A stretch of 26,025 nucleotides of DNA from a virus. Positions within the stretch are counted from its first letter, which is position 1. Each line of letters begins with the position of its first letter. The notes beneath the pieces were generated by a model. It was not told the DNA's origin and ran no database searches. It saw only the letters and a list, made by a program, of their open reading frames with translations. The position numbers and the translations under genes were made by a program. Positions 5,392 to 25,969 of this stretch are shown in pieces. The DNA lies in IMG/VR virus record IMGVR_UViG_3300009537_000152, positions 1-26,025 of that record. The stretch is one strand, 5' to 3'.

Positions 5392-6825
5392 TTACCCCCC
5401 ACCTACCGGGATAGTGTTCCAGTCGTTTATCAGTTGTTCAATCCACGCCAAGGATTCTCTGGCCCCCGGACCAGCCCTGCCAAACTCGCGGGTCTCAGAT
5501 AGAAACTGTTCGTAAATGCCCTGTAAATATCCTTGGGCATCGCGGACCTCTTCCGGTGAAAGCGTCCCTGAGTGGTAGCGTTGCCAGAGTTCCTCGTTCA
5601 ATCGCTCGGCCTCGCCGGTAACATAGTTCTGCGCTGGCACAATGGCATCGGCTTCTCTTCTCCCACGCCCAAACAGGCTAGTGGCAGCGCCAATCCCAGC
5701 GCCAGCCGCCGCCCCGATTGGTCCAAGGGTCGCGCCAAGAGCCGCCCCGCCTAACAGGCCCCCACCCACACCCCCAGCCAGTCCGCCAACAGTGGCCCCG
5801 GTAGCCCCGCCACTCAATGCGCTCCTGGGGGTATTGACGGGGTTGAACAGGTCTATCCGTGGTGGTGCGCTAAATGCCCCACTGCCCTCGGGAAGACCTC
5901 CAGGGGGCAGTGCAACGTCCGTACTCCCGCTGGGCGGTGGAAGTAATCCTGGAGGCAGGTCAGGCCCAAGGGTGGTTCCGGGTAGCGGAGGATTTTGGAA
6001 TAAGTTGGGGTTCTGATTCACGAACTCCAGGCGGTCCTCAAAATCATCCTGGCTACCAGCCGTGATCCTGGTATCAGTAGACCCAGTAGCCGTTCTGCCT
6101 TCTATGTCTTGCTCGAACGTGGACTCGGACGTTGATCCTGGCAGCCTATACCCAAACACAGCCAAGGCGTCAGCTAAATCCTGGCTTTGGAACTGCCTTT
6201 CCAGCGCCGGAATAGCTTCGTTTAAGAATCTGCTCTGCTCCCCAAACCGCCTTGTCTCAATATCAGAAAGGCCCGCACCCTCTACCGCCGTACCGCCAAG
6301 CCCCCGGCTGGTCAAGCGGTTCTCTAGAGCCTGTTGGGACAAGTTGGACCCTTCGTTAATATTCCGCAATCCCTGAGCTTGAATGCCGCTGATAACGTCC
6401 GGGCCCTCCTGAAGTCTTTGCATGGCTTGGTTAATCAGCATTTGCTGTAACCCCTCAAACTCAGGCTGGATGGACGGGGTAGTTGTAGAAGAGCTGGTCC
6501 CGCCCGTAGCAGTGGAACTGGAAGTCTGCCCAGATTGCCGCGAGAATCCATAGGGGTCTGGATTGTATCCCCCCGCTCCCAATAGTTGCCCGGCCCCTGT
6601 AACTGCCGGACCCAACCACCAGGGGAACTGAAACCCTCCACCCGACTGCTGCCCGCCCGCCTGCTGTCCACCACCAGGCTGCTGCGTTGGGAACGGAGGC
6701 GGGACTGGGGTTTGGCCGATGTCCAACGGGGGTGGGTGGATAAAAATCGGCGGCGTGTAGTAGGGGAATGGGTTCGTTGGTTGCGGTACCGGGTCTGGGC
6801 GGAAGTTCCTTCTATTTGTCGCCAT
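5392..6825 (-). CDS. Internal virion / ejection protein candidate with Pro-rich N-terminus and glycine zipper
   Basis: 477 aa. Residues 10-65 are Pro/Gln/Gly-rich, followed by a Ser/Thr-rich patch near 100-118, an amphipathic helical part (120-225), another Pro-rich linker (275-335), then an almost pure Gly/Ala/Leu segment at about 338-385 (SGGATGATVGGLAGGVGGG and onwards) typical of glycine-zipper membrane-active proteins. The last 80 residues are a charged helical tail. Glycine zippers occur in phage internal proteins that form a channel in the host membrane, which fits the operon position. It starts 14 nt after the fibre-like gene, with GGGGGC upstream of ATG. No enzymatic residues seen. 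Confidence 0.74.
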   Translation of the reverse strand: MATNRRNFRPDPVPQPTNPFPYYTPPIFIHPPPLDIGQTPVPPPFPTQQPGGGQQAGGQQSGGGFQFPWWLGPAVTGAGQLLGAGGYNPDPYGFSRQSGQTSSSTATGGTSSSTTTPSIQPEFEGLQQMLINQAMQRLQEGPDVISGIQAQGLRNINEGSNLSQQALENRLTSRGLGGTAVEGAGLSDIETRRFGEQSRFLNEAIPALERQFQSQDLADALAVFGYRLPGSTSESTFEQDIEGRTATGSTDTRITAGSQDDFEDRLEFVNQNPNLFQNPPLPGTTLGPDLPPGLLPPPSGSTDVALPPGGLPEGSGAFSAPPRIDLFNPVNTPRSALSGGATGATVGGLAGGVGGGLLGGAALGATLGPIGAAAGAGIGAATSLFGRGRREADAIVPAQNYVTGEAERLNEELWQRYHSGTLSPEEVRDAQGYLQGIYEQFLSETREFGRAGPGARESLAWIEQLINDWNTIPVGGG

Positions 6826-12037: not shown

Positions 12038-12668
12038 GGAAGTAAGAAACCCTATCCCTTGCTATCCTGGATTCAACGTACCGCTTAAGCCTTTGGTCAT
12101 ACCCCCTAAATTCATTGAAGTGCTGGAGGGCTTTGACATAATCCCTTTCCTGGGCGAACAAATCTCCCAGGGCGTATTCAACAATCCCGTAGTGGTATTC
12201 ATCAGGAAATCCCGGCGTATCCGCATCCCCGATCATGCTTGCAGGAAGTGCCGTGTAGTACAGCGTAAAAGACCCCAGGGCATCCGACGAATGGGGGAAA
12301 ATCCCCAATTGCCACAGTCCCCTCAATACACACTTCTCTTCTTCTCCAGTAACCTCTTCCCACTCCAGCCGCTCATTGTCGAGGTCCCGAACGTCCTTGA
12401 ACTCGATCCAGCGGTTTGTCTGGTTGTTAAAAGCATGTTTCGGGGTTAAGACCACATCGCTCCCCAGCGAAGAGGAAAGATCGTAGTACAACTGATCCGC
12501 AACATGCGGAACGACGTAGTTCTTCTCCATCCATTCCGACGAATCCGAGATTTCTTCCAGGCCGTCATTCAGGGCTGCTTTTACATCAGCCAATGCCCAG
12601 AAGCGGGGCGAGGAAGAATTCTCTTCCAATCTCGTAAATATCTCGGTTTGCATTTCCAGGAAAGTCAT
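12030..12668 (-). CDS. Head-tail adaptor/connector-like protein (first of a pair)
   Basis: 212 aa starting MTFLEMQTEIFTRLEE, with an N-terminal helical region (WALADVKAALNDGLEEISDS), a beta-rich centre around YYDLSSSLGSD and WIEFKDVRDLDNERLEWEEV, and a C-terminal helical bundle containing YHYGIVEYALGDLFAQERDY. YGIVxYAxxxLxxxxxDxxKA followed by a Y..R....RIARDR tail is common in phage adaptor proteins that dock on the portal ring. Its ATG overlaps the stop of the GalE gene by 4 nt, so the sugar cassette and tail genes form one transcript. Function inferred from fold pattern and order. Confidence 0.68.
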   Translation of the reverse strand: MTFLEMQTEIFTRLEENSSSPRFWALADVKAALNDGLEEISDSSEWMEKNYVVPHVADQLYYDLSSSLGSDVVLTPKHAFNNQTNRWIEFKDVRDLDNERLEWEEVTGEEEKCVLRGLWQLGIFPHSSDALGSFTLYYTALPASMIGDADTPGFPDEYHYGIVEYALGDLFAQERDYVKALQHFNEFRGYDQRLKRYVESRIARDRVSYFRG

Positions 12669-13600
12669 TGGTTCATCCAGGCCCAGGAAGTTTCAACGAT
12701 GTCCCGCAATGGGCGTTCCGGCTTCCAGCCAAGTAACTTCCTCGCCCTGGAAGCATCCGCAACCAGAATCGCCGGATCGCCAGACCTTCTTGGCCGGGTT
12801 ACGGTTTTGATAGCTCTTCCTGTTACCTCTTCCGCTTCCCGGATAACCTCTCGGACCGAATTCCCGAGTCCGGTCCCAAGGTTCATGGCGGTTGACTTCC
12901 CACCACCTTGCAGATAATCCAAAGCCCGCACGTGGGCATCGGAAATATCGCTGACATGAACGTAATCCCGAATGCAGGTCCCGTCCGGGGTTGGGTAGTC
13001 GTTTCCGAAAATCGACATCTCGGCTCCACCCTTCGCCGCTGATAGGGTTAATGGTATCAAGTGTGTCTCGGGTTTGTGCCTCTCGCCCACTTCCCCATTT
13101 GATCCGGCGGCATTGAAATATCGGAAACTAACAAACTGCAAGTTGGCATGAAGCAAGGCAACCTCGATTCCCAACTTTGATTCCCCGTATGGGTTAACTG
13201 GCCTCAGTGGGGACTCTTCATCAATCGGGATCTCTTTCGGGTTCCCGTAAACTGCCGCCGTAGATGAATAGACGAAGTAGCGAATCCCGGAGTCGAGCGC
13301 CGAGCCTAGCAGGACTTTCCCGGCTGCAAGGTTGTTCTGGCGGTACTTTTCAGGATTCGCGATAGACTCGCTGACAATCGAGGACCCAGCGAAGTGCATC
13401 ACCGCATCCACATCCCGGAGCAGCGGAACCAGTGTCTCCCGATCCCCCACATCTCCCTGAACAAACTGGAATCCGTCTATCGAATCCAGATTCCCCGTCG
13501 AGAGATTATCGTAGGCGATAACCCCATGCCCCGCGCTCCGAAGTTGCCGAATGGCGTGGCTTCCGATATACCCCGCCGCCCCGGTTACTAGAACGCGCAC
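12665..13600 (-). CDS. galE: NAD-dependent sugar-nucleotide epimerase, UDP-glucose 4-epimerase (GalE) type
   Basis: 311 aa short-chain dehydrogenase of the extended epimerase class. Visible motifs are the NAD-binding loop TGAAGYIGS (residues 6-14), D31 after strand two, QGDVGD (48-53), HFAGSS (69-74), catalytic YSSTAAVYG (111-119) with the Y138-x3-K142 pair (NPYGESK), RYFNAAGSN (160-168) and the GalE-like DYPTPDGTCIRDYVHVSDI (201-219). It interconverts UDP-glucose and UDP-galactose, or a related pair such as the N-acetyl or uronic forms; the exact substrate cannot be told. Length is near the family's usual 320-340. It starts with GTG immediately after the preceding stop with little ribosome binding site, so translation is probably coupled. 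An epimerase within a virion operon is unusual. Confidence 0.92.
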   Translation of the reverse strand: MRVLVTGAAGYIGSHAIRQLRSAGHGVIAYDNLSTGNLDSIDGFQFVQGDVGDRETLVPLLRDVDAVMHFAGSSIVSESIANPEKYRQNNLAAGKVLLGSALDSGIRYFVYSSTAAVYGNPKEIPIDEESPLRPVNPYGESKLGIEVALLHANLQFVSFRYFNAAGSNGEVGERHKPETHLIPLTLSAAKGGAEMSIFGNDYPTPDGTCIRDYVHVSDISDAHVRALDYLQGGGKSTAMNLGTGLGNSVREVIREAEEVTGRAIKTVTRPRRSGDPAILVADASRARKLLGWKPERPLRDIVETSWAWMNQ

Positions 13601-13864
13601 CTAGAAGTCAACCGGAACCTGTCTGCCGCCAGACCCGTTCAGTTTGTAAAACTCATCCTCGCTCATAAACTGAATCCGGTTGAAGGTGATGTCTGGCACG
13701 CTTACCTGCGTTACCTGCTCGTGGGAAGGCAGAATGTTCAACTGCCTTGGTTCTACAACGGCCCCAACATCCGTGTTGGCGAGGTTCCAGTCCAGCAAGC
13801 GGAAAGTTCCGTTCTTTCTCTTTTCAATCACCAGCGTTCTGTCGAGTATTGGTCCTTTAGGCAT
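13601..13864 (-). CDS. Small protein of unknown function within the sugar cassette
   Basis: 87 aa, MPKGPILDRTLVIEKRKNG and onwards, with an acidic C-terminal part (MSEDEFYKLNGSGGRQ). No Cys, no membrane segment and no motif I recognise. The ATG overlaps the previous gene by 8 nt and has a strong AAGGAGGA site, so it is translated. It lies exactly between the dehydrogenase-like and epimerase genes. It could be a small partner of the sugar enzymes or an unrelated structural protein. Confidence 0.68.
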   Translation of the reverse strand: MPKGPILDRTLVIEKRKNGTFRLLDWNLANTDVGAVVEPRQLNILPSHEQVTQVSVPDITFNRIQFMSEDEFYKLNGSGGRQVPVDF

Positions 13865-14624
13865 ATACTTCCTCCTTGACGTTTGAAGTCAGATACTTCT
13901 GGTTGATTTCCAGCATCGTCCCTGTCAGCTCGGGTTGATACCCCACACTTTCCGCCCACGCCGCCCATCCATATACATCTTTTGGGATGCACTTGGAATT
14001 GAATCCTCTCTTGTCTGGGTACACGAAGGTCCACCAAAGATTAAATCTCGGGTCGTCTCCATAGACAGCCTCGCGGATTGTATTGTAATCCACCCCGGCC
14101 ATTTTGCAGACATCGTACAACTCCTGGCATTGCGCGACCTTAAACGCAATCGCCCGGTTCTCGCTCAACTTGATAACCTCCGCCTCGTAGTTGGTGACTT
14201 GGCGAATTGAGATGTTGGCGTTGTAGACCGTCTGGTACAGTTCGATAACCCTGGCTCGGTTGAGCGGCTTTCCTCCAAGGATCATAAACTTCCTGGAACC
14301 CATGTCCAGAAATGGGTGCGCTGTGGTTTCCCCCAGGTATTCGGGCTGGTACACGATGTTTCCATAGACCTCTAGCTGGTCACAGGTTCCCGGCATAACC
14401 GTAGATCGAATTACCAGCAAATCTTCCGGGGCATGAGCCACCACACCCTCAACAATGGAGGTATCGAGCTTCCCATCCTTGAGTGGGGTGGGCACACATA
14501 CGAATCCAATGTCTGCCGTGAAGTTGGCTTGGAGATGTAGTGCCGGGTCGTGGATCAGCGCCTTCGGAAATAGCTTGTGCATCGCCCTGCCAACCCAACC
14601 GTAACCATAAATCTTTACCGTCAT
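13857..14624 (-). CDS. UDP-glucose/GDP-mannose dehydrogenase-like protein, short form
   Basis: 255 aa. Motifs follow the nucleotide-sugar 6-dehydrogenase order: GYGWVG dinucleotide loop (7-12), CVPTP (43-47), RSTVMPGT (73-80), QPEYLGE (93-99, the NPEFLRE position), EAEVIKLSEN (147-156) with the Lys and Asn, and KCIPKD (211-216) with the catalytic Cys. These enzymes oxidise the C6 hydroxyl of UDP-glucose or GDP-mannose to the uronate with two NAD. Usual members have about 400-450 aa; here the C-terminal sugar-nucleotide-binding domain is absent, so either activity uses an abbreviated site or the protein has another substrate. It overlaps the glycosyltransferase gene by 4 nt and the next gene by 8 nt. 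The family call is firm; activity is not. Confidence 0.85.
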   Translation of the reverse strand: MTVKIYGYGWVGRAMHKLFPKALIHDPALHLQANFTADIGFVCVPTPLKDGKLDTSIVEGVVAHAPEDLLVIRSTVMPGTCDQLEVYGNIVYQPEYLGETTAHPFLDMGSRKFMILGGKPLNRARVIELYQTVYNANISIRQVTNYEAEVIKLSENRAIAFKVAQCQELYDVCKMAGVDYNTIREAVYGDDPRFNLWWTFVYPDKRGFNSKCIPKDVYGWAAWAESVGYQPELTGTMLEINQKYLTSNVKEEVYA

Positions 14625-16006
14625 TCAGCGCCTCTCTTCATGTAGGTAATTTGGTTGACCGGCATCAACCCCTCCTCCATGCAGGCATTGATGAAATTCT
14701 TCCCGCCGATGTCATAGTGCTCGGGGTGCATGTTATCTTCCAGGATGCCGTTGTTTGAGAACAAGATGCCGTTCGGCTTCAAGCATCGCGCCAATTCCCG
14801 CAATGCCTGCCGCCATTCGGAAATGTGCTCAAGCGAATCCATTGCTACGATAGCATCGTATTTCTCGCCGTTCAGCTCCGGGGAACCTCCCATGGATTCA
14901 AGGACTTTGGCTGTAACTTTGTGCTTTGCCAAACGCCACTTCAGGAATTCCAAAGTTCCCGTTCCCTGGATGTCCATCGCGGTAACATCATGGCCTTTTT
15001 CCGCCAACGTAAATGCCGGTATCCCAATCCCACAGCCGAAGTCCAGCACCTTGAGTTTCTTCGGAACGCTTTCCGCAGAAGAAAGGATAAATTCCGTCAT
15101 GCGCTTCTTGTCTTCGTTGGCTGTGTTGAACCACACCTGCCGACAGACGCGCTCCATCGGAAAGAGCCGGTACCATTCCGCGTCAGGGATATCGTGCTCC
15201 TTGCGCTGCTGCATAAACTCCTGGGCATCGCTGTACACTGCGTCAAGGGTTGGCTTCCCGGTATACTCGAAGGTGTCAACTGCCAGCCGCCGATAGACAT
15301 CCGAGAGAACCATCGACTTCTTCGCTTCGCCCGGCACCGCCCCTTCTAGTTGCAGTTGCTTCCGGTTGCGGCTGGTAATGACGACTTTATCCTTCTTGAT
15401 GTGCCCCAATTCTATCGAGGTATCCGCCCACACCTCTATGCCCTTCTCGGCGGCCTTCTGGCACAACTGAACGTCCGTCCCGTACCGGTGCTCCGGCTCA
15501 AAGAACGGAGGTCCTACCTTGTCGAACACCCGCATCTTAATCAGCAGGCATCCTCCGCCGGCAACGTCTACCTTCTGCAATCCGCCGGTTACCTCGTCAT
15601 CCCGCAGAAAGCGATAGCCGTTTTCGTTGACCTTGTGCATTAACACGGGCTCACAGTTCCCGCCCCTCTGCCAGTAGAGCGCCCCGCAAATATCCTTGTC
15701 GTGGGCAATCATCTTTTCCAAAAACCCATATTCATCTGATGGCCCCGAGGTTACAAACGGGTTGATTACCATGTCATCGTCCAGCATCAGCAGCCAATCG
15801 CAGTTCATCTGCTGGGCCGCTTCGACAATGGCAATCCGGGCGCGAAACTGCTCACTCTTGGTTTTGATCCCTAGGAAGAAGTCGTACCGTGGCATCCTTC
15901 TACCGCAGTGGTAGGCGAAACGCATCCAGTCTTCCAGGACCTCCGGGTCTACCTGCCCATAGCAGGGAACGCCAATCATGATCGTGGGCTTCTTTTCACT
16001 GGACAA
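14621..16006 (-). CDS. Glycosyltransferase (GT-A) fused to SAM-dependent methyltransferase
   Basis: 461 aa. Residues 8-225 are a GT-A fold: TIMIGVPCYG (8-17), DWLLMLDDDMV (70-80) with the DxD-type metal site at 76-78, GTDVQLCQKA (176-185) at the acceptor-base position and ELGHIKKDK (199-207). Residues about 318-460 are a class I methyltransferase: LKVLDFGCGIG (318-328), acidic D345, and AMDSLEHI (388-395), with a C-terminal NNGILE strand. One protein thus probably transfers a sugar and methylates it, or modifies two sites. Start: TTG at 16006, with AAGGAG 7 nt upstream in the transcript; the frame fits. It overlaps the zinc-ribbon gene by 11 nt. Acceptor unknown: virion protein, host glycan or other. 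The order epimerase, dehydrogenase and this enzyme fits synthesis and transfer of one modified sugar. Confidence 0.88.
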   Translation of the reverse strand: MSSEKKPTIMIGVPCYGQVDPEVLEDWMRFAYHCGRRMPRYDFFLGIKTKSEQFRARIAIVEAAQQMNCDWLLMLDDDMVINPFVTSGPSDEYGFLEKMIAHDKDICGALYWQRGGNCEPVLMHKVNENGYRFLRDDEVTGGLQKVDVAGGGCLLIKMRVFDKVGPPFFEPEHRYGTDVQLCQKAAEKGIEVWADTSIELGHIKKDKVVITSRNRKQLQLEGAVPGEAKKSMVLSDVYRRLAVDTFEYTGKPTLDAVYSDAQEFMQQRKEHDIPDAEWYRLFPMERVCRQVWFNTANEDKKRMTEFILSSAESVPKKLKVLDFGCGIGIPAFTLAEKGHDVTAMDIQGTGTLEFLKWRLAKHKVTAKVLESMGGSPELNGEKYDAIVAMDSLEHISEWRQALRELARCLKPNGILFSNNGILEDNMHPEHYDIGGKNFINACMEEGLMPVNQITYMKRGAE

Positions 16007-19312: not shown

Positions 19313-21165
19313 TGGACTGGAACCTGCTCCTGTATTTGCTGTTGGATGTCCCCATTACTGGGGGTAGCCGTTGGTTGTGGGCCTTGTGCGGGCGGGCTTA
19401 CCCCGGCTTGCGATGCCGCTGCCGCCATTGCCATCTGCAATGCCGCTACCCCGAACTCACGAAGGGCCTGCAATTCCTTCTCGTCCCTGATATCGAAGAA
19501 CGCCATTGTCTTCCGCATCAGAACTTCATTGGCAAGCAGTACAGGACCCCTGGCCGGGTCAGTGATTAACGTCAAGGCCGCCATCCACGCTTCTCTTTCC
19601 TGGTTTTCGCTCTTCGGGGCCATTGAGGTAATGTCCACATTGACTTCTGTATCAACCCCGTCAAGGTCTTCTCTCTGAATATTGGCCCACCCTTGCAGGA
19701 TCTTGATTCCCTGCATAGCCCCTGCCATTCCCGCCGTGGCATCACTATTTAACTGCACCCACAACGGCAGGGCCATCTTTTTCCGAAGGTTATAGAGAGC
19801 CAACCGGCCAATCTCAGCCAGCCAGTCCGCAACAATATCGCGGGATTTACTGTCCCGAACTCTGGACTCTGTATCAATAATATTAGCCTGGGTAGCAGTC
19901 TCGGCCTCCGCAATCCCTCTATGCTCTGCCGGGTTGCCTGAAATTTCCCGGAAGTCTTCCTTGGTCTGGGGGATGTTTCTGACTACCGTGGGATCGAGTG
20001 GCGCATCCTGAATTGGGCCGCACGGATTCTCTCTTACCGCACGAAGAATTAACCCGTCAATCGGCTGCTCCAGCTTGGCAATTTCCGCTTCACTCTCAAA
20101 TCCACTGACTAAGGCCCAATACTTTCTCAGAAAGCGTTTCCGGTGAACCCGCTGCATGTCGCGGGTTTCATTCAATTCATCCTGCGGGGAAATCCAGTTG
20201 TAAGTTGCGGGCAAAGGATAGAAGTCATACAACCTTGGATGCCGCATTAAAACAGCATGAGGCACAACCGGCGACCCGTCTTCCCATTCATCCATCGGCT
20301 CTCCGTCCAGCAGGAACTTGTCATTCCCTTCCGCAAAGACATACTTCTTCTTGGCACGCAGGTCGTAAATCTTCCAGACCTTCGCCATGCTGCGAACCTT
20401 TGCTTCCTCGTCCGCGTCAGAATAAGTCGATGGCGAAGAATCACCATCCAGTTTTCCGGTGGTTCGCACGTTGGAAGTGTTTTTGTAGAGCTTATTCCTC
20501 TTCAAGTCCTCGGGATGGTGCCACTCAAAGTAGGCATACCAGTCTGACCGGCCCAACTGTCTTGATTTTGTAGTTGGCGCAATCCGAAACTGTGCCGCCG
20601 GGATGCGCTTGAAGTATACTTTCTCGGAAAGAAGCTTTTGCTCCGGCTCCATAACCTCGTTTCCATCGGAGTCGGTCATGGGCTGCTCGGAGTCTTCTTT
20701 CAGCATGGGCCTTCCGGCATTCGGGTTGTCGGCAAAGTTTCCCGAATACCCTACTTCAATAATTCCAACCATGAAGTACGATTCGAGCAGCGCATCAAAC
20801 GTCTCCTGCTTAAAAGACAACCGCTTATCCCGCACAAAGTAATTCAACGTCTCTTCCTGCAATTGTGCTCTGGCGCTTGCGTCTGACCCCGGAGTCTGGG
20901 TATGGGAAGGTCTGGGACGGATCAGGAATTTAGGATGGTAAAACAACTGTGTGGGGAGTTGCGACTCAATTGTCGGGAAGATCATGTTGATCGTGTACTT
21001 CGTCTTGCCGTTCTCTTCCCGTTCTTCCCGCCACTGGTGCCCTAAGTAATACTGGTAGAGCACATCGCATTGATACTTCTCCACCCACTTTTTGTAGCAC
21101 TTGTCCGCAGCTTCCAGTCTTTCCGCCCAGACCTTCACCCGATCCGAGTCTGTTTTTCTACCCAT
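19309..21165 (-). CDS. Portal protein
   Basis: 618 aa starting MGRKTDSDRVKVWAERLEAA. The N-terminal helix ends in YQCDVLYQYYLGHQW, then INMIFPTIESQLPTQLFYHP and KFLIRPRP, the usual portal wing/stem pattern with a beta patch followed by a long alpha-helical core (LQEETLNYFVRDKRLSFKQE, FDALLESYFMVGIIEVGYSG). The C-terminal part is Gln/Pro-rich and low complexity (VSPPAQGPQPTATPSNGDIQ). Twelve copies form the ring through which terminase pumps DNA. It overlaps the terminase gene by 8 nt, the normal neighbour. Length is typical for podoviral portals. Confidence 0.88.
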   Translation of the reverse strand: MGRKTDSDRVKVWAERLEAADKCYKKWVEKYQCDVLYQYYLGHQWREEREENGKTKYTINMIFPTIESQLPTQLFYHPKFLIRPRPSHTQTPGSDASARAQLQEETLNYFVRDKRLSFKQETFDALLESYFMVGIIEVGYSGNFADNPNAGRPMLKEDSEQPMTDSDGNEVMEPEQKLLSEKVYFKRIPAAQFRIAPTTKSRQLGRSDWYAYFEWHHPEDLKRNKLYKNTSNVRTTGKLDGDSSPSTYSDADEEAKVRSMAKVWKIYDLRAKKKYVFAEGNDKFLLDGEPMDEWEDGSPVVPHAVLMRHPRLYDFYPLPATYNWISPQDELNETRDMQRVHRKRFLRKYWALVSGFESEAEIAKLEQPIDGLILRAVRENPCGPIQDAPLDPTVVRNIPQTKEDFREISGNPAEHRGIAEAETATQANIIDTESRVRDSKSRDIVADWLAEIGRLALYNLRKKMALPLWVQLNSDATAGMAGAMQGIKILQGWANIQREDLDGVDTEVNVDITSMAPKSENQEREAWMAALTLITDPARGPVLLANEVLMRKTMAFFDIRDEKELQALREFGVAALQMAMAAAASQAGVSPPAQGPQPTATPSNGDIQQQIQEQVPVQ

Positions 21166-22966
21166 AGACTACTTCCTGGCGCTTATTGCTCCACTTGCCC
21201 CATTTCGGGTGGTTGCGCTTGAATTTCAGAATTTCGTCCCGTCTACCGAAGAAACTATTGGAACTGTACCGTTTGGCCGGGATATTCGGGACTGGCGCAC
21301 GCGAAGACGCGAAGTACCGCAGCACATCGTAGCCATGATCGGGAACTCCCTTATCGCGCTCATCTGAAAAGACCGGCTTCCCCAGCTCCGTGCCAATGCG
21401 CTCACGCCGCTGTTGTTTAGTATGGCGAACGATCCAGTCAATCCCTTCCGGCAGGTCTTCGGACTTCATCAGGAACCACAGCCTGGGCCAGTAACCGTAC
21501 TCCCCGGTAAACGGATGGACCCGTGGGATCTCGTCTCCAGGCTGGATGGTCATATTTCCATAAGTCCTGGGAATGGCACCTTTATAAATCTGTCCCGTAC
21601 CCTGGGGTCTTAGCAACTCGCTGATATAGTTCCTGGTCCCCATTTCGTCATTGTCGGCAGCCTGCCAGTCAATGGCGGTCTCTGGGTCGAAGCCGTGGTT
21701 GGGGTTTCTGTCGGAATACTCATCGGAGAACGACCATCTCCCTCCATACTTCTGCATGGTCTTGTAGAACATTGACGGATCGGCCAGGGAAGTCTGATAT
21801 CTTTCCTGCTGGCTCAAATTCGTCAAATTCTTCCGATGATCTGAGACCAGCAGATTTGCCTTGTAATACTCCCTGTACCCTATGTAATCCCCGCTCTGCA
21901 GAACCGACCACCACCCGCAACACGTAGGCGCTGAATCTCCATGATCGAGTGTTCTGTGCAATGTTCCTTTGGTCTTGACGAACTCTGCAAGGGCATGAGT
22001 TCCCGGAACCATGCTTTCAGGACGGATATTATGAATCTGCCCCTCGGGGATGCCCCACTCCCCGTAGAAAAACCTTCGCTGCCAGGTAATATCGTTGTTG
22101 AGCATTTCCTGGACGTTCTGATCCGGCAGGAACTTGTTCTCAAACGATGCCAATTTCAGCATCCGATACCCCAATTGAGAATACTGCTCTTTCCATGAAG
22201 TGCTTTCCGGGTGAAACCGCTGGTAAATCCAATGGCTCTCTACCTCGGGGTTGCAGGCAATCATGGAGTAAATCGGAGGGATGGGTCGTCCGGTTTCTGG
22301 ATTTTTCCAGGGCCATTTGTCGAGCCCGCCATATTTCATTAAGACCCGCTCAGGAACTTCGGCCTGATCCCACCTTCCCAGCCTTCCCATTAAGGTAGTG
22401 AAAATCTCCTCAGACACCTCTTCGGCCTGGTCAATCAAAAACCAATTCACTTCCAAGCCCCTGACTACCTTGTCCACATCGTCGTGCTCCAAGTGCAGCC
22501 AGATAATCTCCGACTCGCTCCCGGCAAGCCGTAAAGTCCCTTCCTGGTCAGACCGCCTTCCGCCCAGTTTAGGGTCGTATGCCGAAGGAGGGCAGAGCTT
22601 AAAGAACGTCTTCTGGGTGGTTAGGGCAAGCTCTTTGGCAACCTTCCTGGCAATGACCCCACGATTTTTGGGGTAGAGGTCGCTCAGATAAAGGGCCTTC
22701 AAGCACAGCGCAAAAGTTTTCGCGGAACCGAACCCTCCCGACATGCACAGGGGCGCGGGGCCGTATTCCCACGCTACGCGATCCCAGTGGACATGGGGGA
22801 TTTTCTCTTCAACCCGGACAATTCTGTTGCCTTCAATCTTGCGCGGGCGATCGTTGCAATGGCAGATGTACTCTTGTTCGTTCGGGTTAAGCTCATCAAC
22901 CCTTGTTGAGACACTGGCCCACTTGATTTCGTTTTTGGACCAGTCCCCATATGAGAAATTACCCAT
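21158..22966 (-). CDS. terL: Terminase large subunit (packaging ATPase and nuclease)
   Basis: 602 aa. ATPase part: Walker A-like SGGFGSAKT (76-84), Walker B-like WFLIDQAEEV (175-184) with D179 and the acidic pair at 182-183, and ACNPE (237-241) at the coupling motif; YGEWG (301-305) marks the linker. Nuclease part: LDHGDSAP (340-347), ADPSMF (395-400) and PDHGYDVLRY (542-551) supply the three acidic clusters of the RNase H-like headful/terminase nuclease. It cuts and pumps the genome into the prohead using the portal. The Walker B Glu of the usual DEAEE is Gln here (DQAEE), so the catalytic base may be one of the following Glu residues. The ATG overlaps the previous stop by 8 nt. Confidence 0.93.
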   Translation of the reverse strand: MGNFSYGDWSKNEIKWASVSTRVDELNPNEQEYICHCNDRPRKIEGNRIVRVEEKIPHVHWDRVAWEYGPAPLCMSGGFGSAKTFALCLKALYLSDLYPKNRGVIARKVAKELALTTQKTFFKLCPPSAYDPKLGGRRSDQEGTLRLAGSESEIIWLHLEHDDVDKVVRGLEVNWFLIDQAEEVSEEIFTTLMGRLGRWDQAEVPERVLMKYGGLDKWPWKNPETGRPIPPIYSMIACNPEVESHWIYQRFHPESTSWKEQYSQLGYRMLKLASFENKFLPDQNVQEMLNNDITWQRRFFYGEWGIPEGQIHNIRPESMVPGTHALAEFVKTKGTLHRTLDHGDSAPTCCGWWSVLQSGDYIGYREYYKANLLVSDHRKNLTNLSQQERYQTSLADPSMFYKTMQKYGGRWSFSDEYSDRNPNHGFDPETAIDWQAADNDEMGTRNYISELLRPQGTGQIYKGAIPRTYGNMTIQPGDEIPRVHPFTGEYGYWPRLWFLMKSEDLPEGIDWIVRHTKQQRRERIGTELGKPVFSDERDKGVPDHGYDVLRYFASSRAPVPNIPAKRYSSNSFFGRRDEILKFKRNHPKWGKWSNKRQEVVYG

Positions 22967-23465: not shown

Positions 23466-23491
23466 ATGGCTCTCCTAATGTAATGCGACCT

Positions 23492-23567
23492 GACAGATAC
23501 TCGCTGTCGGACCGAATACCCGTGAGGGGCGGCTGAGTTCAGGCGGATCGGAGGGAAACCGCCCCTC
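23492..23567 (-). promoter_or_regulatory. Structured 5' leader of the leftward (packaging/virion) transcript
   Basis: Between the predicted leftward start (about 23580) and the first gene (23465) the transcript folds into two stem-loops: GAGGGGCGG with CCGCCCCTC (23559-23567 and 23524-23532, a 9-bp perfect stem) and GACAG with CTGTC (23492-23496 and 23504-23508, extendable to 7 pairs). They may stabilise the message or control translation; no U-tract for a terminator. Confidence 0.5.
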
Positions 23568-23586
23568 TGCATCTAGACAGTGACAG

Positions 23587-23614
23587 ATTATGTCTCCTTG
23601 CCGAATAATGTCAA
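23587..23614 (-). promoter_or_regulatory. Leftward sigma70-type promoter of the packaging/virion operon
   Basis: On the minus strand TTGACA (23614-23609), a 16-bp spacer, and CATAAT (23592-23587). This is a consensus -35 and 5 of 6 at -10. It fires towards the small genes, terminase, portal and capsid genes, starting near 23580. The -35 forms an inverted repeat with that of the rightward promoter, only 8 bp apart. Confidence 0.72.
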
Positions 23615-23622
23615 GTTTTTTC

Positions 23623-23650
23623 TTGACATCGCCGTTTTTCGTCGTATTAT
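23623..23650 (+). promoter_or_regulatory. Rightward sigma70-type promoter of the candidate small RNA
   Basis: TTGACA (23623-23628), a 16-bp spacer, TATTAT (23645-23650): consensus -35 and 5 of 6 at -10. A start near 23657 would place the 5' end just before the first helix of the structured RNA (23661). Its -35 mirrors the leftward -35 (arms TGTCAAG and CTTGACA around a T6 tract), so both promoters cannot be bound at full occupancy together. Confidence 0.7.
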
Positions 23651-23656
23651 GAATCT

Positions 23657-23770
23657 GTACACTCCAACTGAATCGGCATAGGGGGAAGCTGGGAAGTTTC
23701 CCCCACACGTTTCGGTTGGAAGATTGCAACGTGAAAATGCCGATCTCAGGCCAATCCGGTAATTGGAGTT
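23657..23770 (+). ncRNA. Candidate structured small RNA (three-way junction, GNRA hairpin, pseudoknot)
   Basis: Reading from the predicted start, the strand folds into: P1 ACTCCAA (23661-23667) with TTGGAGT (23763-23769); P2 ATCGGCAT (23672-23679) with ATGCCGAT (23737-23744); inside P2, P3 at 23681-23690 with 23695-23704, a 10-bp stem with one G-U pair capped by tetraloop GGGA (GNRA type); and P4 CACGTT (23706-23711) with AACGTG (23728-23733). The P4 loop GGTTGG (23714-23719) can pair with CCAATC (23751-23756) in the P2-P1 strand, a possible pseudoknot with one G-U. Single A residues and AAA separate the helices, as in natural junctions. The G-U pairs favour the plus strand. It contains no good ORF and does not fit tRNA, hammerhead or other classes I know. 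Further small hairpins lie at 23788-23830; no clear terminator is seen. Confidence 0.6.
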
Positions 23771-23973
23771 GCCACTCTACCACACGTCCCTTGGCCGCAA
23801 GGTCAGGAGTCCGCGAAAACGCGACGGGGTATCGGGCTAACGCCTTACCTGCAGACCCCGGACCAGTGACCAGACCTTGAAAAAGCCTGGTTTGCCGAAT
23901 CGCACCTGAGATCGAACCAAATAACCCCTAAACCTAAAAAGTGATTCCTCCCTTTACTCGCTCCCCCCTGAAA

Positions 23974-23989
23974 TGTTTCACGTGAAACA
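23974..23989. promoter_or_regulatory. parS-type ParB-binding site
   Basis: TGTTTCACGTGAAACA is a perfect 16-bp palindrome (18 bp counting the outer A and T) and matches the bacterial chromosomal parS consensus TGTTNCACGTGAAACA exactly. Chance occurrence in 26 kb is negligible. ParB loads here as a CTP-dependent clamp and spreads. No parA or parB gene is present in the window, so the host's ParB is the likely partner unless the phage encodes its own elsewhere. Confidence 0.85.
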
Positions 23990-23999
23990 TCCCTGCCAG

Positions 24000-24044
24000 G
24001 GAACCCTATCCTGGAACCAAATACCAAATCCTAATCCAGGAACC
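24000..24044. repeat. Spaced GGAACC repeats next to parS
   Basis: GGAACC occurs at 24000, 24013 and 24039, spaced 13 and 26 bp (one and two units of 13). The last two extend to YGGAACCARATAC-like copies (TGGAACCAAATAC and AGGAACCAGATAC), and a CGAACCAAATAA copy lies at 23913. Short, regularly spaced direct repeats beside parS and close to the small terminase gene resemble iterons or terminase recognition sites. Confidence 0.45.
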
Positions 24045-24079
24045 AGATACGTGGTCCAATATACCCCATACCACGAGGA

Positions 24080-24113
24080 GGGGCGGGAGTCCCATCCGGG
24101 GGGGGCTAGGGGG
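24080..24113 (+). other. G-rich tract with quadruplex potential
   Basis: G-runs of 4 (24080-24083), 3 (24085-24087), 8 (24098-24105) and 5 (24109-24113) on the plus strand satisfy the four-run pattern for a G-quadruplex with loops of 1, 10 and 3 bases. It lies in the non-coding locus between the GGAACC repeats and the inverted repeats. Confidence 0.4.
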
Positions 24114-24199
24114 TAGGCAAACCCGCCGGAAACCGCCTGAAATCAGCACGAAAGTACCCCGTAAAGGCTCCTAACCATAGCGTAATCAGCATGTTAGGG

Positions 24200-24237
24200 C
24201 CACGTGTATGGTGAATGTATGATCTGCATACACGTGG
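24200..24237. repeat. Long inverted repeat with CACGTG-containing arms
   Basis: CCACGTGTATG (24200-24210) and CATACACGTGG (24227-24237) are perfect 11-bp complements around a 16-base loop. It could be a cruciform, a dimeric protein-binding site, or a hairpin at a single-strand initiation site. The arms carry CACGTG cores but are not parS sites. Confidence 0.55.
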
Positions 24238-24311
24238 TTGGGAGCACAACACGATCGGCTGATGCGGATGCGAGTGCAACGGGCTATCCCGTCAACGTCA
24301 AAACCTTGACA

Positions 24312-24361
24312 CTGTCGAAATATTGACAGTTTGGTCTTACATGGTGTCAGGATATTGACAC
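24312..24361. promoter_or_regulatory. Pair of TGTC-N8-GACA palindromic operator-like sites
   Basis: CTGTCGAAATATTGACAG (24312-24329) and GTGTCAGGATATTGACAC (24344-24361) share TGTC, ATATTGACA and dyad symmetry, with starts 32 bp apart, about three helical turns. A third related element, GTCAAAACCTTGAC (24297-24310), lies just before. The site pair ends at the stop of the small terminase gene. TGACAG also recurs near the 23.6 kb promoters, suggesting one regulator. Confidence 0.5.
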
Positions 24362-24362
24362 A

Positions 24363-24791
24363 CTACTGGTCCTGGTCTGGAGTGATGTTGATGGCCGGCG
24401 CGTCCACGGTGATCTTGACTGCAGATCCTGGAGGCAGGTGGAACATGGGTTGCCGCTCTTCGGTCTTTGGTGGTTCTTCCTTGGTTAGCTGGCCAAATTG
24501 AATATGATCGATGCGCTCAAGAGCTTTGAGAGATACCATTAATTGACTGTCCTGGTTGATGAGTTGGGCGTAGCGTTCAGCACGTTGTTCCGGCGGGATC
24601 TTGTCTAACAGGGTGCGGCGATAACTGTTGAGGAGCTCGCGCTGTTCCTCGTCGTTGAGGGAGATTTCCCCTTTGACTTTGGCCACCATGCTCAGCGAAC
24701 AGCCGGCTGTTTGGGCGATATCGCGTACACTGGCACCCGTGGCCAGCAGCGCAGTGATTCTCGCCCTTTTTTTCAGGTCTTTGGTCCTCAT
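24363..24791 (-). CDS. terS: Small-terminase-like HTH DNA-binding protein
   Basis: 142 aa from ATG 24791 (a TTG at 24827 would add 12 residues but has no ribosome binding site). Residues 7-40 form a clear helix-turn-helix: KKRARITALLATGASVRDIA then QTAGCSLSMVAKVKGE. A helical oligomerisation part with ERYAQLINQDSQLMVSLKAL follows, then a C-terminal PMFHLPPGSAVKITVDAPA beta segment. HTH, helical multimer and a beta tail ending in PPGxxVxITV is the usual design of phage small terminase subunits, which bind the pac/cos site and hand DNA to the large subunit. It lies 1.4 kb from the large subunit, with the control region between. An unrelated regulator cannot be ruled out. Confidence 0.65.
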   Translation of the reverse strand: MRTKDLKKRARITALLATGASVRDIAQTAGCSLSMVAKVKGEISLNDEEQRELLNSYRRTLLDKIPPEQRAERYAQLINQDSQLMVSLKALERIDHIQFGQLTKEEPPKTEERQPMFHLPPGSAVKITVDAPAINITPDQDQ

Positions 24792-24833
24792 ATCTCTTTT
24801 TATCGCACTAATATTGATAGATTGCAAGCTTTT

Positions 24834-24886: not shown

Positions 24887-24911
24887 TCGCCTTTCCTTCC
24901 GTGCCATCCTT

Positions 24912-24983
24912 TTGACAGCACTATCTGTTGTGGTCTAGGTGTGCCTGATAGCACTATATTTTGGGGCTTGTAATAGCACTATC
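24912..24983 (+). promoter_or_regulatory. Rightward promoter region with three AGCACTATC operator-like repeats
   Basis: AGCACTATC (24917-24925), AGCACTATA (24950-24958) and AGCACTATC (24975-24983) are within longer dyads of the type GATAGcaCTATC. The first overlaps a consensus TTGACA (24912-24917), the second a TATATT (24955-24960). TTGACA lacks a good -10 at normal distance, and TATATT has a poor -35 (TGGTCT at 18 bp), so the promoter may need an activator or the repeats may be repressor sites. Transcription would enter the small-gene run at 25036. Confidence 0.45.
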
Positions 24984-25002
24984 AGTGGATTATCATTGGG
25001 TT

Positions 25003-25260: not shown

Positions 25261-25323
25261 CCGCGATCTGCCAGCTTGTCCTCGGAGAGCGAGCACACCG
25301 CGATTAGCGGAAACCAATGGAGG
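25261..25323 (+). repeat. Two-hairpin leader element, copy A
   Basis: Starts directly after the TAG of the preceding gene with CCGCGAT, then hairpin 1 (25274-25294, seven or eight pairs with one mismatch, loop TCGGA), hairpin 2 CCGCGATTAGCGG (25298-25310) and AAACCAATGGAGG, whose GGAGG is the ribosome binding site for the next gene. Confidence 0.72.
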
Positions 25324-25331
25324 GAAACAGA

Positions 25332-25547
25332 ATGGAACGACGAACACAGGAGGGACACATGAAAACGTACATAATCTACAGACGAGAACCGGTCCGGCCA
25401 GAGCATGGCGGGCGGAATACCGCATCTGGTTATTGCTGGGTTAATCGCGGCGAGGAGCGATCGGTCAACCCTCATCGCGCTATCGCGCAACACCGGCAGC
25501 GCAATCCATCAGATCAGCATGCCAGACTCCGCACAGCTCGCTGCTAG
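25332..25547 (+). CDS. Small basic protein of unknown function
   Basis: 71 aa from ATG 25332, 8 nt after the GGAGG of leader element A, as in the other copies; an ATG at 25359 has its own AGGAGG upstream and would give 62 aa. The sequence includes MKTYIIYRREPVRPEHGGR and an Arg/His/Gln-rich end (HRAIAQHRQRNPSDQHARLR), strongly basic and without hydrophobic segments, perhaps nucleic-acid binding. It ends with TAG, next to copy B. Confidence 0.58.
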   Translation: MERRTQEGHMKTYIIYRREPVRPEHGGRNTASGYCWVNRGEERSVNPHRAIAQHRQRNPSDQHARLRTARC

Positions 25548-25606
25548 CCGCGATCTCTGCTCCTACCGGGAGTAGAGACCGCGATTAGCGGAGAACCAAA
25601 TGGAGG
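25548..25606 (+). repeat. Two-hairpin leader element, copy B
   Basis: CCGCGAT follows the stop TAG. Hairpin 1: TCTCTGCTCC (25554-25563) with GGAGTAGAGA (25569-25578), ten pairs with one G-U, loop TACCG. Hairpin 2: CCGCGATTAGCGG (25579-25591), then AGAACCAAATGGAGG. Hairpin 1 differs in sequence from copies A and C but keeps its pairing. Confidence 0.75.
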
Positions 25607-25612
25607 GCAGAA

Positions 25613-25777
25613 ATGAAACGATATACTGATCCATTCGCAGCGCTCGAAACACTCCAAGCTCAAATAGCTAAGGCTAGCCAAGACGATCGCGACGGAGATG
25701 CCGATACGCTAGGCCAAGTGGAAGCATTTTTGGTGAATTTGATCTCCGCCCCTACCGGGGGCGGTGACCGCGATTAG
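25613..25777 (+). CDS. Small acidic protein running into the next leader
   Basis: 54 aa from ATG 25613, six nt after GGAGG: MKRYTDPFAALETLQAQIAK, then an acidic SQDDRDGDADTLGQ and a short hydrophobic VEAFLVNLI. The frame continues through hairpin 1 of copy C (residues APTGGGDRD) and stops at the TAG inside CCGCGATTAGCGG, so protein end and leader overlap. Function unknown; the helical, acidic make-up could suit a small inhibitor. Confidence 0.6.
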   Translation: MKRYTDPFAALETLQAQIAKASQDDRDGDADTLGQVEAFLVNLISAPTGGGDRD

Positions 25778-25793
25778 CGGAAACCAATGGAGG
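25746..25793 (+). repeat. Two-hairpin leader element, copy C
   Basis: Hairpin 1: CCGCCCC (25746-25752) with GGGGCGG (25758-25764), seven GC pairs and loop TACCG as in copy B. Hairpin 2: CCGCGATTAGCGG (25768-25780), then AAACCAATGGAGG. The leading CCGCGAT of copies A and B is lacking because the previous gene reads through. Confidence 0.75.
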
Positions 25794-25801
25794 AAACCAA
25801 C

Positions 25802-25969
25802 ATGAACACTTGCGACGAATGCAACGCCGTGGTTAGACACGCCGGCGATATCTGTGAGGATTGCGCCGACATGGGGTATGCGCTGCACAATGAGCGTGCC
25901 GGCGTTAGCCTAGATGTCTATTGTGAAGGGGAAACGAATGACCTGCCCACACTGCAAGGCCGAGTTTGA
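25802..25969 (+). CDS. Small Zn-ribbon-like protein
   Basis: 55 aa from ATG 25802, 8 nt after the GGAGG of leader copy C: MNTCDECNAVVRHAGDICED, then CADMGYALHNERAGVSLDVY. The pairs CDEC (4-7) and CEDC (18-21) form a typical treble-clef or ribbon zinc site. The next gene starts inside it (25938) in another frame. Confidence 0.65.
   Translation: MNTCDECNAVVRHAGDICEDCADMGYALHNERAGVSLDVYCEGETNDLPTLQGRV

Follow-up and report, generated by a model that had tools for sequence, protein, structure and literature searches.

A strongly structured RNA predicted behind a near-consensus promoter in an insertion between the terminase genes of an uncultured tailed phage

The DNA analyzed here, a virus record of 26025 bases (referred to as the window), is a fragment of the genome of an uncultured tailed phage, lacking the right arm. 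It encodes a terminase large subunit (TerL) whose nearest annotated relatives are haloviral terminases, together with portal and major head proteins (PHROGs), SU10-type adaptor proteins, and a TerS-like HTH protein. Since homologues of the latter lie directly upstream of terL in related phages, as judged from profile matches, the corresponding gene was taken as terS. Nucleotide-sugar genes for an NAD-dependent epimerase, a member of the UDP-glucose/GDP-mannose dehydrogenase family and a methyltransferase (12665-16006, minus strand) are located between the adaptor and head genes. A non-coding insertion holding two divergent near-consensus promoters, a structured RNA and an exact parS site separates terS from orf73, orf94 and terL (Table 1). 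The RNA therefore has the terL gene on one side and the TerS-like gene on the other, which agrees with its placement between the terminase genes in a preliminary description made from the sequence.

Table 1. Positions of the features of the terminase region and of the elements of the RNA fold in the window.
Feature	Position	Strand	Remarks
Terminase large subunit TerL	21158..22966	-	Terminase_3, E 1.6e-6; relatives found
Lineage-specific non-coding insertion, ~0.9 kb	23466..24362		between terS and orf73/orf94/terL; contains the RNA
Divergent promoter TTGACA-N16-CATAAT (11/12)	23587..23614	-	reads toward orf73, orf94, terL
Sigma-70-type promoter TTGACA-N16-TATTAT (11/12)	23623..23650	+	predicted start G23657
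Structured RNA	23657..23770	+	coaxial P1/P2 rod leading to a junction from which hairpins P3 (GNRA loop) and P4 extend
P1, 7 bp	23661-23667/23763-23769	+	from the fold
P2, 8 bp	23672-23679/23737-23744	+	from the fold
P3, 10-bp hairpin, GGGGGAAGCU-GGGA-AGUUUCCCCC	23681..23704 (arms 23681-23690/23695-23704)	+	GNRA tetraloop GGGA, one G-U
P4, 6-bp hairpin, 16-nt loop	23706..23733 (arms 23706-23711/23728-23733)	+	from the fold
CCTGAGATCG, perfect 10-nt complement of 23741-23750 (P2 3' strand)	23905..23914	+	38/2000 shuffles reach 10 nt
Exact chromosomal-type parS TGTTTCACGTGAAACA	23974..23989		0 expected by chance; inside an 18-bp perfect palindrome
TerS-like HTH protein	24363..24827	-	HTH_38, E 2.4e-4, below Pfam cut-off

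About 40 related loci were gathered from IMG/VR by TerL, portal and TerS scans. In five of the eight relatives with a recognisable TerS, terS adjoins the terL cluster (L004, L005, L010, L023/L017, and L043; the terS assignment is weak in L005, with an E of 5e-4, and in L010, with an E of 0.013). L044 and L016 have a small gap at this point, and L020 has other genes there, spanning ~2.8 kb. The record of the nearest relative, L001 (80% TerL identity), ends inside terL, before the terS-terL interval. This comparison suggested that the insertion with its RNA was gained by this phage lineage between terS and terL, so that the RNA occupies a spot where relatives have nothing or other cargo.

The stability of the RNA was evaluated against shuffled sequences and against the rest of the contig. 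The plus strand of 23657-23770 folds with a minimum free energy of -52.5 kcal/mol (z -6.4, 200 shuffles), and none of 2000 dinucleotide-preserving shuffles was as stable (z -5.95). When the entire 26-kb contig was scanned on both strands, this segment ranked first among 1296 120-nt windows (z -6.2), and the next independent structure in the same scan reached a z of -4.8. Moreover, the opposite strand folds with only -39.3 kcal/mol (z -3.0), 13 kcal/mol weaker than the plus strand, indicating that the plus strand is favored, as its G-U pairs had first suggested. Helices P1 (7 bp) and P2 (8 bp), the GNRA-capped 10-bp hairpin P3, and the second hairpin P4 were all recovered in the computed fold; a further 4-bp CUGA/UCAG helix (23668-23671/23746-23749), absent from the preliminary description, continues P2 past a bulged C.

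The same description had the P4 loop pairing with the strand between P2 and P1 as a pseudoknot. This pairing, placed at 23750-23760, was calculated at -9.2 kcal/mol, a value equalled by 104 of 1000 shuffled loop/strand pairs; the possible pseudoknot is thus, as modeled, no better than chance, and this part of the description gained no support. The z-score of the fold drops once the 3' end is set past ~23775, indicating that the boundaries of the RNA are about right. In a longer transcript, pairing of CCTGAGATCG with the 3' strand of P2 could displace that helix, as modeled, and the long-range anti-P2 helix is weak. A larger RNA extending up to 23940 was considered and rejected, because its 3' part alone is not significant (z -1.0) and the anti-P2 helix has this weakness.

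The promoter upstream of the RNA is rare in this sequence. The pattern TTGACA-N16-18-TATNAT has a single match in the 26-kb window, with 0.01 expected, and this match points at the RNA, so that the near-consensus promoter reported directly upstream was borne out. The predicted start, 7 nt beyond the -10 box, lies 4 nt before P1 as previously stated, and pairing begins at nucleotide 5 of the predicted transcript. The -35 boxes of this promoter and of the divergent one together form a single palindrome, ATGTCAAG-TTTTTT-CTTGACAT (23608-23629). That the contig's strongest structure follows such a rare promoter head to tail, in the right orientation, is the best argument for an RNA that sequence alone provides, and we consider it probable that a genuine structured RNA is transcribed from this locus.

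The 3' end is less sharply predicted. Most stand-alone sRNAs end in an intrinsic terminator; none was found directly after P1, and no strong plus-strand terminator was found between 23770 and 24960. The sole terminator-like site downstream on the plus strand, ahead of terS, is weak (24311-24330). Given that no intrinsic terminator follows P1, the 3' end is predicted either at ~114 nt, after processing, or at up to ~0.7 kb, in which case the fold would form the 5' end of a longer non-coding transcript that fills the insertion.

Known RNA classes and homologues were then searched for. No Rfam covariance model matched the RNA at its gathering score, and ARAGORN detected neither a tRNA nor a tmRNA, consistent with the earlier statement that the RNA fits no known class. 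Neither blastn in phages and plasmids nor two exact-RNA-pattern scans of viral contigs returned a homologue. A covariance model built from the one sequence matched the window alone among the ~40 related loci (the next scores, E 0.4 and 0.7, did not reproduce the fold) and nothing beyond the window in 27 whole records; no relative turned up when prokaryote genomes were scanned twice with TerL. With no homologue in the loci, the records, the blastn search, or the pattern scans, the RNA is an orphan. Structured stretches upstream of terL in relatives were rejected as equivalents, having neither sequence nor fold in common, and structured RNAs that follow promoters in relatives proved unrelated and were rejected as counterparts. 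One of the related loci, L007, carries a candidate sRNA of its own (5570-5710, plus strand), in which a TTGACA-N18-CATAGT promoter is followed by ~100 nt that end in seven T after the strong hairpin GAGCGCCGATCTCTC..GAGGGGTCGGCGCTC.

A short stretch downstream of the RNA was also compared. GGGCTAACGCCTTRCCT (23834-23850) recurs with 16 of 17 bases identical near 5739 of L023 and near 125 of L017, on the minus strand in both. Each copy follows GAGTCC and hairpins at similar spacing in non-coding DNA beside terminase genes, the two phages being diverged, and the L023/L017 copy lies upstream of terS. As a mark of a homologous larger RNA, GGGCTAACGCCTTRCCT was rejected: a gapped scan of viral contigs gave only those two loci and a single further hit, attributed to chance, within a gene of another phage. 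One of 100 shuffles aligned locally as well, so that homology with L023/L017, which is suggestive and not significant, was not accepted.

The coding potential of the region was low. ORFs in the insertion have codon-usage z values of 0.8-1.7, compared with 4.2 for terS and 3.3 for orf94, and there is no clear coding signal over the RNA. A minus-strand ORF at 23475-23783 was rejected as a gene, as its codon signal is weak and the divergent promoter lies inside it.

We tentatively read 23657-23770 as primarily a phage-specific regulatory RNA, with a rough probability of 0.45. This reading is supported by the extreme, strand-biased stability, the adjacent promoter, the weak ORF signals, and the lack of an Rfam or tRNA match; the missing intrinsic terminator, the missing homologue, and an equally exceptional fold under DNA parameters argue against it. 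Among the functional readings that remain, a stand-alone or processed regulatory RNA is the most economical. Host sigma-70 RNA polymerase would start at ~23657 from the near-consensus promoter, and the first 114 nt of the transcript would fold into a closed P1/P2 rod bearing P3 and P4. With only four unpaired 5' nucleotides, the RNA should be very stable. It may control the expression of phage or host genes via base pairing or protein binding. An accessory element would be expected to be missing from most relatives, as the insertion is.

Regulatory RNAs derived from phages are well established (PMC12197685; PMC4104026). Like OOP, c4, AgvB, STnc6030 and other sRNAs of phages and prophages, the RNA is short, phage-encoded and non-coding, several of them having their own promoter; unlike them, it lacks a terminator and a known target, matches nothing by sequence or in Rfam, and has a more compact fold. 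By its sequence it shares the general features of phage regulatory sRNAs, being non-coding, folded, and preceded by its own promoter. The RNA is thus an orphan within an established kind, phage non-coding RNA, that matches no catalogued family, and it enlarges the dark matter of uncultured phages by one well-delimited structured RNA.

The least unlikely alternative is an element acting at the DNA level. In such a case the foldable strand would mark a single-strand initiation site or a site of packaging or recombination, and the promoter would be either incidental or used for priming. Folded with DNA parameters, the plus strand of 23657-23770 is equally exceptional (z -6.35), which leaves room for a role of this kind. 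The location beside terS would suit a pac or cos site, as such sites often adjoin terS, and three near-copies of TGTC-N8-GACA lie directly downstream of terS at 24296-24360, where they are possibly regulator operators or TerS/pac sites. However, the G-U pairing and the 13 kcal/mol strand asymmetry appear at the RNA level, and the promoter is directly adjacent and correctly oriented; we consider a DNA-level role unlikely.

Next in probability, and also unlikely, is a put-like leader, that is, a nascent 5' fold that binds the elongating RNA polymerase and causes terminator read-through toward the early plus-strand genes from 24961. HK022 putL is likewise a folded RNA immediately downstream of an early phage promoter, and it pairs from nucleotide 3 (PMC9378689), compared with nucleotide 5 here; the lack of a strong plus-strand terminator between 23770 and 24960 is also compatible with such a leader. 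In contrast, put is ~70 nt long with two open stem-loops, no enclosing rod, and a sister copy (PMC9378689), whereas the hairpins predicted here lie within a closed rod. No repeat of the RNA was found near the divergent promoter, so that the divergent transcript would have no second copy of the kind that put has. Moreover, the plus-strand genes have promoter-like and repeat sequences of their own at 24909-24996, and the transcript would have to cross terS in antisense.

Chance, meaning an inert palindromic sequence with no function, was given a slightly lower probability still. The structure is known from one genome only, has no homologue, and was chosen for being structured. On the other side stand its rank at the top of the 1296 segments scanned, the 0 of 2000 shuffles that were as stable, and the independent coincidence with the promoter.

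An equally low probability was given to a role in prophage replication. The parS site lies 204 bp downstream of the RNA, and its sequence, which agrees with the Bacillus subtilis consensus, is the chromosomal parS listed for Hyphomonas neptunium (PMC7022226). The insertion could accordingly be a plasmid-like maintenance module, in which the non-coding RNA drives extrachromosomal replication of the prophage and parS is a centromere served by a host or phage ParB. Prophage replication in phages Alma and LadyBird depends on a non-coding RNA encoded next to parABS; this RNA runs in the reverse direction to parA over 400-500 bp, and its role was shown genetically (PMC7157519). Like the present locus, for which transcription is predicted, the RNA origins of RedRock, Alma, and LadyBird are transcribed non-coding stretches that span a few hundred bp and lie next to a centromere site, and the absence of the insertion from relatives would suit a module of this type.

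Several observations oppose this role. Neither the 26-kb window, which is a fragment, nor 22 related phage records yielded a ParB_N gene. None of these records has the parS within two mismatches, so that the match occurs in this phage alone; among the 20 predicted window proteins scanned, none gave a ParA-type match. Unlike the cluster A phages, whose parS consists of 8-bp direct repeats and which have parA/parB (PMC7157519), the present phage has a chromosomal-type palindrome, and neither gene was found in the fragment; any replication role is putative. In addition, no antisense promoter of the RNA I type was found over the structure. The parS is the only supporting element at this locus. A more specific version, in which RNA and parS form a compact, protein-poor module, the RNA starting extrachromosomal replication and host ParB being borrowed via the chromosomal-type parS, is more improbable again. 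If the RNA were tied to the neighboring parS, it could show by what means such a phage is maintained in its host.

The packaging RNA suggested earlier, which would work on the terminase motor, is very improbable. The present fold resembles the outline of phi29 pRNA, in which a rod and two hairpins meet at a junction, and the position between terS and terL would suit it. The similarity extends to size (~120 nt) and to the packaging-gene neighborhood, but pRNA is said to occur only in phi29-like phages (PMC11476376), and the phage pRNA model of Rfam gave no match at E up to 5. Unlike in that group, which has a gp16-type packaging ATPase, TerL here matches Terminase_3 and a TerS-like protein is present. 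Furthermore, most relatives that share the packaging genes and have a recognisable TerS carry terS and terL side by side, and the RNA was found in none, which together with the restriction of pRNA to the phi29 group makes a packaging role unlikely. The preliminary reading thus holds for a promoter-driven structured RNA outside the known classes, while its packaging suggestion is disfavored; of its other suggestions, a regulator or a host-targeted RNA, the regulator is the most likely.

Further repeats were noted around the RNA and beyond terS. A 15-nt imperfect inverted repeat (93%; 23532-23546 and 24133-24147) flanks the RNA and parS, with ~0.2 such pairs estimated by chance in the region. 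The TAGCACTAT repeats (24909-24986) that separate the plus-strand genes from the divergent terS gene are likely operators. The second-best independent structure of the contig lies at 25521 on the plus strand (z -4.8). A further element, ACCGCGATTAGCGGAAACCAATGGAGG, is present in three copies (25297-25334, 25578-25615, and 25767-25804), each located shortly before the ATG of a small early ORF. Ahead of two copies there are hairpins that are related but differ in their stems (25552 and 25741), and the element looks like a repeated cis-regulatory 5' leader.
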